Shown here piece by piece: positions 6,963 to 43,618 of a DNA stretch of 64,000 bases. Made by a program: the position numbers and the translations under genes. Each line of letters opens with the position of its first letter. The stretch's first letter is position 1. The notes under the pieces were generated by a model, which saw only the letters and a list, made by a program, of their open reading frames with translations, ran no database searches and had not been told where the DNA came from. Source of the stretch: Gammaproteobacteria bacterium (lineage in GTDB: Bacteria; Pseudomonadota; Gammaproteobacteria; Steroidobacterales; Steroidobacteraceae); assembly GCA_021773365.1 (NCBI GenBank), contig JAJFKF010000020.1, positions 62,001 to 126,000 of the forward strand. Reading direction: 5' to 3'.

Positions 6963-7976
6963 TCAGCGCCCGCTCAGCACGATCTGGTCATCGGTGTAGT
7001 GCGCGCGAACCTGAAAGGTGTCTTCCAGCAATCGGACGAAGATTTCATAGTTCGTCGAGCGAAATTTCCCGGTCAGCCGGATGGCGGCGACGGCAGGGTC
7101 CTGGATGACGATCTGACGTTCGTTGTAGCGGTTGAATTCCGCAACCGCCTCGGCGAGCGCGGTCTCACGAAAGACGACATAGCCGGAACGCCAGCTCAAA
7201 GTGTCTTCGGCTTCCGGCACGGACTTGTTCTGTACCGCGATCCGGGCATCGATTGTACGGGCTATGGCGCCGGCGGTGAGCAAGGAACCCGCAGAGTCGG
7301 CGGTTTCCATGCGCACGAGACCTTCGGTGACGATCACTCGAATATTTTCGCCCTCCTTACGCACAGAAAACTTTGTGCCTACGGCGACAATGCGTTTTGC
7401 GCCCGCGCGCACGACAAAAGGTCGCGCGGGGTCTTTGGCGACATCGAAGAACGCTTCGCCCCGCGCGAGATCAATCCGACGCTCCTTGTCAGTCAATTGG
7501 ACGCGAATAGCGCTCGCGGTATTCAACGTGACGCTTGAGCCGTCTTTCAGCGGCACTGAGGCGACGCCACCGATCGGCGTTGCATAGCGATCTCCCGCCA
7601 AAGGACCCGCGGTGTAAACAAAGATTCCAGTTCCGATCGCCAGCATAACTGCCGCCGCGAGCGCCGATAGCTTCGCCCACATTGCCCCCCGCGTCCGGGA
7701 TTGCGGGAACAACTCCGCAATCCCGGACGCGGGGGCAATGCTACGGCTTAATTCGTCGATGCTGGGTACCTTGCCGCGCGCAAATCCGGCGCCCAGGGCC
7801 TTGAGGCGGCTGGTTTTTTCCCAACCGGCTTCCAGGCGCAGGAAGGCGACGCGGTTCACCGTCGCGGTGTCCAACCATTCCGCCAGCCGCGCCGCGTCCT
7901 CATTGCTCCAGTGTCCGCTGTCGCGCTTCAGCAGCCACGCCGCGGCGTGCTCTTCGGTTTGTTTACTCCTTTCCAT
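6963..7976 (-). CDS. FecR-type anti-sigma factor (module 2)
   Basis: Full-length FecR protein, 337 residues. N-terminal cytoplasmic DUF4880 region (AAAWLLKRDSGHWSNEDAARLAEWL), one membrane helix (about residues 100-120, LSALAAAVMLAIGTGIFVYTA), FecR domain (LKDGSSVTLNTASAI, RGEAFFDVAKDPARPF, VAVGTKFSV) and a C-terminal DUF4974 part (VVFRETALAEAVAEFNRYN). The start overlaps the sigma gene by 14 bases, indicating translational coupling. The linker before the membrane helix (IAPASGIAELFPQSRTRGAM) is encoded by a long palindrome. It would hold or activate the sigma factor in response to the receptor at 6644. Confidence 0.9.
   Translation of the reverse strand: MERSKQTEEHAAAWLLKRDSGHWSNEDAARLAEWLDTATVNRVAFLRLEAGWEKTSRLKALGAGFARGKVPSIDELSRSIAPASGIAELFPQSRTRGAMWAKLSALAAAVMLAIGTGIFVYTAGPLAGDRYATPIGGVASVPLKDGSSVTLNTASAIRVQLTDKERRIDLARGEAFFDVAKDPARPFVVRAGAKRIVAVGTKFSVRKEGENIRVIVTEGLVRMETADSAGSLLTAGAIARTIDARIAVQNKSVPEAEDTLSWRSGYVVFRETALAEAVAEFNRYNERQIVIQDPAVAAIRLTGKFRSTNYEIFVRLLEDTFQVRAHYTDDQIVLSGR
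7680..7740. repeat. Long palindrome inside the fecR reading frame
   Basis: The left arm at 7680-7706 and the right arm at 7715-7740 are complementary over 26 bp with one extra C in the left arm; the loop is 8 bases (GAACAACT). Arm core: CCCCCGCGTCCGGGATTGCGG. It encodes about 20 in-frame residues in the juxtamembrane linker of the anti-sigma factor, where an insertion would be tolerated. It looks like a palindromic repeat element taken into coding sequence. Confidence 0.75.
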
Positions 7977-29822: not shown

Positions 29823-29991
29823 TGTGGATTCCCCCGGGGACGGTTGCTCAACGATGGGCCGCTTCGGGCCCGATGAAGTGCGGCGATTATTGCACAGAAG
29901 TCCGGCTGCCAGCCTGCGGCAAAACGCTCCGACCGGGCTGTTTGACCGCCGCCTCGCTTGACGCGCCGCACGCACCGGTGCACCCTCCGCG

Positions 29992-30247
29992 GCGTGCAAG
30001 GTTACGGGAAGTCGGTGCGGATTCGTCCAATCCCGACGCTGCCCCCGCAACGGTGATTGAGTATCGGCGCGTCGTGAAGCCACTGTTTATGGATGTGAAC
30101 GGGAAGGCAGGCGCGTCGGGAACGGAGAAGGTTGGCCAAGGAAAGTTATCCACAGTTTATGGGAATCTCCCCCCTTAAACTGTGGGTAACTTTCCTTGGC
30201 CAACCTTCTCCGCTCCAGCTCCTAAGCCCGGAGACCGGCCTGCACGC
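29992..30247 (+). ncRNA. Cobalamin (B12) riboswitch, interrupted by a long palindrome
   Basis: P1 is a perfect pairing of GCGTGCA (29992-29998) with TGCACGC (30241-30247). Between them lie GGGAAGTCGGTGC (30009-30021), the highly conserved GCTGCCCCCGCAACGGTGA, and a GCCACTG/GGGAAGG pair in the next helix. The B12 box AAGCCCGGAGACCGGCC is at 30224-30240, an excellent match to the consensus. The 90-base palindrome at 30123-30212 occupies the variable peripheral region before the B12 box. It controls the BtuB-like receptor at 30384; binding of adenosyl- or methylcobalamin should repress expression. Confidence 0.88.
30123..30212. repeat. Long palindrome with DnaA-box-like arms, copy 1
   Basis: Arms 30123-30158 and 30177-30212 are complementary over 36 bp with one T-G wobble, plus a closing A-T pair. 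The left arm contains GTTATCCACAG, an exact DnaA-box 9-mer (TTATCCACA); the right arm has TGTGGGTAA. The loop contains TGGGAATCTCCCCCCT. The same core and loop recur at 43549-43618 with different outer arms. It is wholly inside the riboswitch transcript. Confidence 0.9.
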
Positions 30248-30383
30248 AACCGACGGTGTCGCGGCGGGCGATGCTCTGGTGGCCGGCGTTGAAAGTTCTT
30301 TCCCCGCCCGTACCAGCGCTCCTCCCACCTGGCCCGTTTCCAGTAACCGGGCACGGGTGTGTGCCCCTTCGAGGAGCATCAAC

Positions 30384-32453
30384 ATGTTCAATTGCACTCG
30401 CACGCGCGGCCTGACGGTCGTGCTTTCCGTCTGTTTCACCAGTGTTTGCGCGCCGGTCATGGCCGACCCGGCACCGACCCTCAGCGCTGACTCCGAGGTG
30501 CTGGTACCCGGCACCCGCCTGCAGCCCGATCCTTTCGCGCCGGCGGCCAGCGTATCGGTCATCGACGCCGAGCGCATTGCCACCAGCCCCGCGCGCACGG
30601 TGGCCGAGCTGCTGGCGGTGGAGGCTGGAATTCAAGTGCGCAGCCTCTACGGCAATCTTTCGGCACGCACCACCGTGGACCTGCGTGGATTTGGCGTCAC
30701 TGGTGGACAGAACACCCTGATTCTGCTCGACGGGCGGCGACTGAACGATGTCGATCTGGCCACCGTGAACTTCGCCGCCCTGCCCCTGCACAACATCGAG
30801 CGCATCGAAATCGTGCGCGGGTCGGGGGGCGTGCTGTACGGCGACGGCGCCAGCGGCGGCACGATCAACATCGTCACGCGGCGACCACAGGCCGGGGAAT
30901 TCTCCGCCCTGGTAGGCGTGTCCGGTGGCTCCTACGACAGCAGCGGCATTGAAGGACGGCTGTCCTGGGGCGGTGAGCGGGCATCGGTCAATCTGGCGGC
31001 CGAAAGCCTCGAATCGGACGGCTATCGCGAGAACAACGGCCTGGAACAGCGAAATGTACAGCTGGAAACCCGCCTGCAGAATGCCGGCTTCGATTTCTAC
31101 GCCAAGGTGGGCCTGAGCGATCAGGAACTGGGCCTGCCGGGGGTGCGCACCGTGGATCCGGGTGCGAATCTCGATGAGCTTGGTAATGACCGCCGTGGCG
31201 CCGCCGATGCGGACAACCTTGCGCAGGAGCGCGCAGGCTATGTGACGGCCGGCTTCAGCCGCGATCTGGGCAAACACGCCGGGATGCTGTTCGATGCCGG
31301 CTATCGTGATCGCAGCCAGCAGGCCTGGTATGCGAGTTTCAGCGACTATCTGGACACCGATCTGCGCAGCGTTTCGGTGACGCCGCGGCTGTACATCGAC
31401 CATGACCTGCCCGCACTGCCGGGACGATTCATCACCGGCATCGATTACTACGATCACACCTACGACTCCAGCCGCGCCTTCAGCGAACAAACCATCGGCA
31501 TGCCCATTCACCGGCTGTTGATCGACCAGCGCAGCACCGCCGTGTACGTCAGCAATCTCGCCCGGCCGACTGAACGACTCACCGTGGACCTCGGTGCGCG
31601 CCTGCAGCGTGTACGCTTCCAGGCCCGCGATCTGTTCGACCCCGGCGCGCCCGGTGCGGCGGAGAAATTCGAATTCAGCGGCGCACCGGATTTCTCCCGC
31701 AGCGACACTGAATCGATGTTTGAAGCCGGGCTGGGCTATGAGCTCAGTGACACCGCGCGCCTGTTCGCGCGCGCCGGCCGCAGCGTACGCTTTGCCACGG
31801 TCGATGAACTGTATGAGTTCGATGCCTTCTTCGCGCGCGTTTTCTCGCCGCTGGAGCCGCAGGTGGCGGAGCATCTGGACATCGGCGCGCACTACTCGCA
31901 CGGGCGCCTGCTGGGGAGCCTGACGGCCTACGCCATGGAGCTGCAGGATGAAATCCATTTCAACCCCGTGACCTTCGCCAACGAGAACCTCGACCCCACG
32001 CGCCGGCGCGGCATTGAGGCGGAGGTCGGCGTGCAGATTGCGGTGAATCTGAACCTGCGCGTGAACTACACCCTGCAACGCGCCACTTTCCGCGACGGCC
32101 TGTTCGACGGCAATGAAGTGCCAGTGGCGCCGCGCCGCCTGGCCAATGTCACCGGCCTGTGGTCCATCCTGCCCCACCTTGAACTGGCAGCTACCTGGCA
32201 TTACGTAGGCGGGAAGCGCTTTGACAACGACGAGGCCAATACCTTTGCCGCCCGCATCCCGGCCTACGACCTGCTCGACGCCCGCCTCACCGCTGGCTAC
32301 GGGCAATGGACCGTATCACTGGCGGCGCACAACCTGCTGGGTGAAAAGGCCTTTGACTACGGCGTGGCCAGCACCTTCACCCCGGGGCGCTTCAATGCCT
32401 ATCCACTGCCGGAACGCAGCTTCACCTTGCGGCTGGGGCGGCAGTTCAACTGA
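30384..32453 (+). CDS. btuB: TonB-dependent receptor, BtuB-like cobalamin uptake
   Basis: 689 residues from ATG 30384 with GAGGAG eight bases upstream. Signal peptide (LTVVLSVCFTSVCAPVMA), TonB-box region (DSEVLVPGTR), plug (TTVDLRGFGVTGGQNTLILL, IEIVRGSGGVLYGDGASGGT) and a barrel ending in SFTLRLGRQFN. It has no STN domain, unlike the module receptors. The upstream cobalamin riboswitch is the main evidence that it imports B12 or a corrinoid. Its C-terminus lacks the exact terminal Phe. No btuCDF genes are nearby. Confidence 0.85.
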   Translation: MFNCTRTRGLTVVLSVCFTSVCAPVMADPAPTLSADSEVLVPGTRLQPDPFAPAASVSVIDAERIATSPARTVAELLAVEAGIQVRSLYGNLSARTTVDLRGFGVTGGQNTLILLDGRRLNDVDLATVNFAALPLHNIERIEIVRGSGGVLYGDGASGGTINIVTRRPQAGEFSALVGVSGGSYDSSGIEGRLSWGGERASVNLAAESLESDGYRENNGLEQRNVQLETRLQNAGFDFYAKVGLSDQELGLPGVRTVDPGANLDELGNDRRGAADADNLAQERAGYVTAGFSRDLGKHAGMLFDAGYRDRSQQAWYASFSDYLDTDLRSVSVTPRLYIDHDLPALPGRFITGIDYYDHTYDSSRAFSEQTIGMPIHRLLIDQRSTAVYVSNLARPTERLTVDLGARLQRVRFQARDLFDPGAPGAAEKFEFSGAPDFSRSDTESMFEAGLGYELSDTARLFARAGRSVRFATVDELYEFDAFFARVFSPLEPQVAEHLDIGAHYSHGRLLGSLTAYAMELQDEIHFNPVTFANENLDPTRRRGIEAEVGVQIAVNLNLRVNYTLQRATFRDGLFDGNEVPVAPRRLANVTGLWSILPHLELAATWHYVGGKRFDNDEANTFAARIPAYDLLDARLTAGYGQWTVSLAAHNLLGEKAFDYGVASTFTPGRFNAYPLPERSFTLRLGRQFN

Positions 32454-43548: not shown

Positions 43549-43618
43549 CAGCTCAGGGAAGTTATCCACATTTTGTGGGAATCCCCCCCCTCAAAATGTG
43601 GATAACTTCCCTGAGCTG
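43549..43618. repeat. Long palindrome with DnaA-box arms, copy 2
   Basis: Arms 43549-43575 and 43592-43618 are perfectly complementary over 27 bp; the 16-base loop is TGGGAATCCCCCCCCT. Both arms carry the exact 9-mer TTATCCACA (as GTTATCCACAT and its complement). Inner core and loop match the element at 30123-30212; outer arms (CAGCTCAGG here) differ from that copy but remain self-complementary. It lies between the starts/ends of the esterase and aspS genes. Confidence 0.92.

Follow-up and report, generated by a model that had tools for sequence, protein, structure and literature searches.

The 90-nt palindrome near position 30,123 of the window (the whole 64,000-nt stretch of DNA analyzed here, taken from the Steroidobacteraceae assembly GCA_021773365.1, below called the source genome) lies inside a cobalamin riboswitch and belongs to a hairpin family that is dispersed and lineage-specific. 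We consider it likely that the palindrome is a copy of a non-coding hairpin element of about 85 to 90 nt, that such elements insert as whole hairpins, and that this copy is tolerated in an arm of the riboswitch.

A cobalamin riboswitch interrupted by a palindrome

An earlier note on this DNA, made from the sequence alone, had described a cobalamin riboswitch with P1, core, and B12 box intact that is split by a near-perfect 90-base hairpin, and both parts of this description hold (Table 1). The match spans the full RF00174 model (cmscan, model positions 1 to 189, E = 3e-14), and its score of 66.6 bits against a cutoff of 31.5 places it within the cobalamin riboswitch family. The palindrome appears in this match as a single long insertion between model positions 151 and 152. 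The extent that the note gave for the hairpin is exact, with perfect outer arms; the inverted-repeat search returned 30119-30163 paired with 30172-30216 (45-nt arms, 93% complementarity, 8-nt spacer).

The gene 3' of the riboswitch encodes a TonB-dependent receptor. In NCBIfam it matches siderophore- and B12-receptor models, the best 25 of 32 matches all lying below their cutoffs. We name it btuB because of the riboswitch and its position, and by this context it would be the gene that the riboswitch controls.

Table 1. Features of the window discussed in the text
Feature	Position	Strand	Basis or detail
Cobalamin riboswitch aptamer (RF00174), palindrome-interrupted	29981-30257	+	cmscan 66.6 bits, gathering 31.5
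Inserted palindromic element, 90 nt, head orientation +	30123-30212	+	Inverted-repeat and head analysis; family covariance model
Copy-specific outer stem, 5' arm, 22 nt	30123-30144	+	
Head hairpin, 46 nt, TTATCCACA in 5' arm, TGTGGGTAA in 3' arm	30145-30190	+	
Copy-specific outer stem, 3' arm, 22 nt	30191-30212	+	Perfect complement of 30123-30144
TonB-dependent receptor gene, 3' of riboswitch	30384-32453	+	PF00593 and PF07715 above cutoff
Second family copy in the window	43549-43618	+	Arms 43549-43560 / 43607-43618 (12 nt), head 43561-43606

A dispersed, lineage-specific hairpin family

The riboswitch palindrome and its relatives are not a product of chance, since few inverted repeats reach a score of 14 (just 13 rows in 453 kb of the source genome, 6 of which belong to this family) and the first head pattern had 18 exact matches in the source genome, compared with none for its reversed control. 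A covariance model built from 15 copies picked by that pattern, one of them the riboswitch copy itself (94.7 bits at contig C69:92127-92208, which is window 30127-30208), gave 107 rows at E ≤ 0.01 that merge to 55 places in the source genome. This count comes from scoring 150 of 690 candidates, and where places lie at contig ends, two of them may represent a single site that was split. A wider palindromic pattern found 30 places. The second copy in the window had been reported in the earlier note as an intergenic relative of the riboswitch hairpin, and the relationship is real: its head is closely similar to that of the riboswitch copy, and its neighbors on the two sides are genes for an alpha/beta-hydrolase and a class II tRNA synthetase, each predicted on the minus strand.

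Outside the source genome, the covariance model had no match in 39 relatives (E = 1e-4) or in 216 other genomes of the family (E = 1e-9, with stricter filters). The exact head pattern, with 29 matches in the source genome, had none in 368 other genomes of the class and none in viral contigs. The 55 places, together with the absence of the head from those 368 genomes, support the earlier suggestion that the palindrome is mobile or amplified; the movement itself is something we infer. A loose DnaA-palindrome pattern picked out at least 92 stretches in other genomes and one viral contig. By eye, 80 of these stretches and the viral one look like DnaA-box clusters without the family head, and we set them aside; a long paired outer stem was seen among these 81 only at L119, a Treponema site rich in A/T where 30 outer bases are paired.

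The source assembly consists of 157 contigs, and the genomes searched include no close relative. A contig end is no more than about 200 nt away from many of the copies (e.g., on C7, C18, C24, C45, C58, C59, C60, C62, C91, C92, C122, and C125), so the hairpins probably break the assembly. Some contig-end sequences at hairpin copies look garbled.

A constant head on a copy-specific stem

The copies share a plan in which a head hairpin of about 45 nt stands on an outer stem that is 12 to 26 bp long by the scoring used, differs between most copies, is about 97% paired, and has sharp ends. The head is laid out as GTTATCCACA-NTT-...-GGGAATC-C-run-...-AAN-TGTGGATAAC. Two further loci, L063 (C40:41140-41263) and L065 (C78:1728-1850), share the GTTATCCACA/TGTGGATAAC ends around an inner part that is longer and different, with about 100 nt between the starts of the two 9-mers.

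In the alignment of the 15 copies, 96.5% of the cells in 36 pairs are standard pairs and 20 pairs show double changes, whereas in slid controls pairing drops to 38 to 52%. These copies were chosen by head pattern, so that constancy of the head is partly built into the alignment while constancy of the outer stem is not. The further tests used a table of 45 of the 55 places, from which we left out truncated, garbled, or poorly aligned rows (9 for the pairing profile, 11 for the mispair, flank, and duplication tests, 14 for the head-arm correlation, and 8 for the arm sequence preferences). Over the 36 copies of the pairing profile, the outer stem is paired in 92 to 100% per position up to position 15, in 47% at position 20, and in 15 to 39%, which is background, from position 21 onward. 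Purines prevail in the 5' arm (G 316, A 136, C 133, T 60), weak sequence preferences run along the outer arms, and G stands at the outer end in 26 of 34 copies. Read in head orientation, the non-Watson-Crick pairs of the arms and head stem comprise 28 G.T and 7 A.C (p = 0.0005), and those of the arms alone 9 G.T and 3 A.C (p = 0.15). This excess of G.T may point to a constraint that acts on this strand when it is RNA or single-stranded DNA, although related copies are not independent.

The head carries TTATCCACA, a 9-mer that we take to be the DnaA-box consensus. This raises the potential that the hairpins are functional chromosomal sites, with DnaA boxes on a cruciform or RNA hairpin that serve in titration, chromosome organization, or 3'-end processing and are selected at each site, the riboswitch copy included. 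Among 34 of the tabulated copies, exact TTATCCACA is present in the 5' arm of 25 and exact TGTGGATAA in the 3' arm of 21, with both in 18, and 12 of the 14 TTATCCACA 9-mers in a 733-kb sample stand in such a paired arrangement. That the outer stem is kept paired in some copies with decayed heads (C67, C88) also agrees with selection at each site. However, DnaA binding is putative here, predicted from the consensus 9-mer, and the genomic positions of the copies also bear on this explanation.

Genomic positions and the search for a mobilizer

Using a simple codon-usage gene caller, we assigned a gene context to 45 of the 55 places. Just one lies inside a called gene (nadK), and three more overlap a gene end by 1 to 17 nt. 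Of 20 copies between genes of the same direction, 17 are nearer the upstream stop codon and one is a tie; the two that are not nearer are second members of pairs. While the closeness to stop codons would suit functional sites, the copies have no constant orientation relative to the upstream gene (10 sense, 10 antisense), copies in the nadK frame and in the riboswitch are unexpected for a fixed site, and no copy was found in the 39, 216, and 368 genomes searched above. We regard the functional-site explanation as unlikely. All seven readable close pairs have their members in (-,+) orientation, judged by eye, with unlike sequence between them, and the other copies are single.

No consistent target-site duplication was found in 34 copies, even though the string shared by the two flanks is on average longer than in re-paired flanks (2.76 versus 2.22; 0.7% of 300 shuffles were as high). 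REP-associated tyrosine transposases carry the Y1_Tnp domain (PF01797). This domain had no match in the source genome at E = 0.001, compared with matches in 5 of 14 control genomes, and we rejected a RAYT or IS200-type mobilizer. The absence of a consistent duplication and the lack of a candidate transposase with a Y1 domain both count against our preferred explanation.

A reverse transcriptase was rejected as mobilizer as well. The two RVT_1 matches are an AbiP2-type defense reverse transcriptase and, by eye, an apparent group II intron fragment; no family match lies on the contig of the intron fragment, and those on the contig of the AbiP2-type enzyme are more than 85 kb away from it. The latter enzyme, an observation in its own right, is encoded at L306:1150-2643 (contig C69, near 5183; PDLC03744, E = 9e-190).

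We also considered whether the hairpins are of a known kind. They do not look like intrinsic terminators, as by eye no run of four or more T's directly follows the right arm in any of 34 copies; in C58, AAAA precedes the left arm. The matches that the hairpins have in Rfam (18 rows at 12 loci) are nearly all to miRNA families and all below their cutoffs, and we read them as generic-hairpin matches.

A copy in frame within nadK

One copy lies in frame within the reading frame of the NAD kinase gene nadK (L018 1062-2054, contig C149), and the frame stays open through the insert. We found nadK in 38 of 40 genomes searched, the source genome included, and fetched the loci of 29 relatives, 26 of which were readable. 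The linker between the RxLL and ALNDVV motifs has 45 residues in the source genome. In the relatives it has 15 residues in 21 of 26 and 14 to 16 in 24 of 26 (in L271 it can be read as 14 or 15), and the remaining two have 21 and 25. The source protein aligns to the best NAD kinase model in two stretches, the better one starting from residue 175, and its two Pfam domains lie at residues 10-121 and 176-302; NAD kinase equivalog scores are below their cutoffs.

Given that this copy is in frame and that the linker has 45 residues compared with 14 to 16, whole hairpins seem to insert. Alternatively, the 45-nt head alone might insert, with the outer stem then formed locally when one flank is copied by fold-back, through inverted duplication or template switching. 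The excess over the modal linker is about 30 codons (90 nt), whereas the hairpin there measures 81 to 87 nt by its paired part and its head plus one arm 63 to 66 nt. Judged from these lengths, the excess would fit a whole hairpin better than head plus one arm. The two relatives with linkers of 21 and 25 residues count against the insertion of whole hairpins; that there are only two among the 26 is a point against fold-back copying.

The riboswitch arm in relatives and the predicted effect of the insert

In the window leader, 117 nt separate the GGGAAGG motif from the B12 box motif (AGCC..GGAGACC). Within the same bacterial family, this segment is 19 to 28 nt long in 27 of 30 riboswitch loci (those given for the best matches among 100 family genomes, 27 being readable) and 32 to 48 nt in all 20 further loci, which were picked among weaker or longer matches (19 measured by script, and L203, at 47 nt, by eye). 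Because the relatives have 19 to 48 nt and the window 117 nt, the arm is length-variable and the long hairpin is private to the source genome among those read. This bears out the variable arm proposed in the earlier note, which had also considered that the hairpin might be an ancestral riboswitch arm; no long hairpin arm was seen in the 47 relatives read. Compared with other RF00174 riboswitches, then, that of the window spans every model position but has a 90-nt insert in a peripheral arm that these 47 lack.

The lengths also bear on how much was inserted. Without the 90 nt, the window segment would be 27 nt long, within the range of the relatives; without the head and one arm it would be 49 nt, just over all 47 relatives read, which is a point against fold-back copying. 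The window leader is of the CAACGGT type, as are all 20 further loci and three leaders of the 30-locus set. The segments of these three (26, 28, and 28 nt) are like the 27 nt of the window, and they slightly favor insertion of the whole hairpin.

By eye, several relatives in the 20-locus set have a short variable hairpin at the site of the palindrome, as might be expected if the element had inserted into the loops of pre-existing long hairpins such as terminators. However, long hairpins without a known head are rare. Of 46 inverted-repeat rows scoring at least 20 in 1.59 Mb, 28 have the family head, 6 are labelled as members of a second hairpin group described below, 8 have the second-group head by eye, and 4 are headless. 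The nadK relatives, moreover, mostly have linkers of 14 to 16 residues. We disfavor insertion into pre-existing hairpins because of this rarity, and hold it to be extremely improbable.

Since the hairpin is very stable (-79.5 kcal/mol predicted for it alone) and separates the core from the B12 box, two parts that have to come together, we wondered whether the insert might add regulation, tuning the switch through its great stability or through a bound protein. We compared predicted pairing probabilities in the leader with and without 30123-30212, the helix names P1 to P3 being assigned in this analysis. P1 had 0.95 to 1.0 in both, P2 had 0.94 with and 0.86 without the insert, P3 had 0.76 and 0.69, and the ACUG hairpin had 0.88 and 0.86. 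The energy model misses P4 in both cases (0.02 to 0.03) and thus says little about the aptamer core. With the ends of the element adjacent when folded, predicted outer helices that hardly change, and the same element present in unrelated places, we consider an added regulatory role very improbable; the most plausible view of the riboswitch copy is that it lengthens a variable arm and is tolerated there. Among the matches listed by narrow literature searches, none described a cobalamin riboswitch that contains a dispersed palindrome.

How copy-specific stems arise

Among 31 copies, similarity between heads does not go with similarity between stems beyond 6 nt (r = -0.10, p = 0.93; over the whole arm, r = 0.10, p = 0.08). 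In three pairs of copies with identical heads, the stems are no more alike than average, which is unexpected under plain descent of whole hairpins and counts against our preferred explanation. Related stems with different heads occur in C7, C60, and C91, all near contig ends. The arms do not appear to be copied from elsewhere in the genome: in 1.59 Mb outside the elements (about 40% of the genome), arm matches of 15, 16, and 17 bases numbered 18, 3, and 1, within the range of five shuffled sets (14 to 21, 1 to 8, and 0 to 2), and the single 17-base match is a copy of its own site. Matches of 14 identical bases were in small excess (45 versus 25 to 35 in shuffled sets).

Stems that are copy-specific with sharp ends, arms that do not follow heads, and identical heads with unrelated arms would all be expected under fold-back copying. 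According to the available part of PMC8794818, template switching can create perfect stems in one step, and stems can be made or kept matched when one arm serves as template for the other; the system treated in that part differs from ours in that it concerns genes for RNAs such as rRNA and microRNA, which have no constant head that is dispersed. The G-C excess of our arms agrees with the template-switch prediction given there, while A-T pairs are commoner than T-A (A 136 and T 60 in the 5' arm), opposite to the predicted U-A excess. The arms, however, have sequence preferences, including the G at their outer end. Their identity counted from the core is 0.43, compared with 0.33 in shuffled arms (0.346 versus 0.317 beyond 7 nt). 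Together with the nadK and riboswitch lengths and with the second hairpin group, in which arms go with heads, these preferences speak against fold-back copying, and we find it quite unlikely.

That second group, also in the source genome, has heads with GGGAAAAAC..GTTTTTCAC and partly alike flanks (L237:10506-10629, L230:1146-1263, L231:9434-9548, L340:12567-12685, L352, L353, L354, L335, and L280). Its stems are 30 to 37 bp long in 16 of 18 members read and largely copy-specific, and they track the heads (r = 0.25, p = 0.02, N = 16 of the 18). One pattern of this group has 14 exact matches in the source genome and 3 in two genomes of another genus. Among the 216 other family genomes, these two, which belong to the same genus, are the ones with relatives of the group; two of the three matches have a long stem, and the third is cut by a contig end. 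Perfect hairpins of 20 to 22 bp without known heads were also seen, at window 7686-7735, L229:143-192, and L278:1962-2002.

The stems of the second group are explained by structure-preserving drift, possibly helped by hairpin-templated copying. In the first group, that of the riboswitch, the stems may be renewed. A tentative and somewhat unlikely reading is that the hairpins of the first group are mobile and that, while their head stays constant, their stems of about 20 bp renew themselves and turn over faster than the head, whether by being formed anew with every insertion or through hairpin-templated copying that rewrites them in place. If this were true, such elements could enter riboswitches and reading frames, since any stem will do.

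Discussion

Hairpin repeats in a structured RNA have a precedent in cyanobacteria, where small dispersed repeats, and repeats inside RNase P RNA, are tolerated in a variable arm. Those repeats differ from ours in sequence and lineage. The closest known kinds of element are Rickettsia palindromic elements (RPEs) and REPINs. As described in the part of PMC10969869 available to us, RPEs are dispersed palindromes of about 150 bp, with several families per genome and some members in frame in coding genes; each has an ORF for a conserved peptide, and nearly half of the 44 in R. conorii lie inside ORFs. The present family is like them in kind, and its nadK copy is in frame in a coding gene, but its members are about 85 to 90 nt long with a copy-specific outer stem, and the share inside genes is small (1 of 45 places examined) compared with the R. 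conorii figure (PMC10969869).

Like our hairpins, the REP and REPIN sequences described in the available part of PMC3116915 are short, dispersed, extragenic palindromes whose hairpins show compensatory changes. Some of them form inverted doublets, an arrangement that our close pairs may resemble. At the ends of REPINs stand invariant 16-mers, with a less conserved spacer between them, and REPINs go with RAYT transposases (PMC3116915). Our family has the reverse layout, with a conserved center and a variable stem, and no Y1 transposase was found in its source genome.

Under the explanation that we prefer, the element would be an RPE- or REP-like palindrome, selfish or domesticated. Head and outer stem would have entered together, as a whole hairpin, at many sites. 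Most of these follow shortly after a stop codon, but one is in frame within nadK, and another is in a peripheral arm of the cobalamin riboswitch that varies in length. The two ends of the folded element would lie side by side, so that it may form a self-contained extension of that arm. Most probably the riboswitch remains functional and is little affected by the insert, its matches to P1, core, and B12 box being intact. Stem pairs without a recognition sequence might drift and yet stay paired, through selection on the folded element, through hairpin-templated repair, or through both, whereas the head is presumably conserved through recognition by some enzyme or by DnaA.

These results provide a natural case of a dispersed palindrome both inside a riboswitch aptamer and in frame in nadK, with relatives that show the uninterrupted state. 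The design of a constant head on a copy-specific stem also lends itself to tests of how perfect hairpins spread and remain paired, a question that the available part of PMC8794818 argues from alignments of RNA genes.
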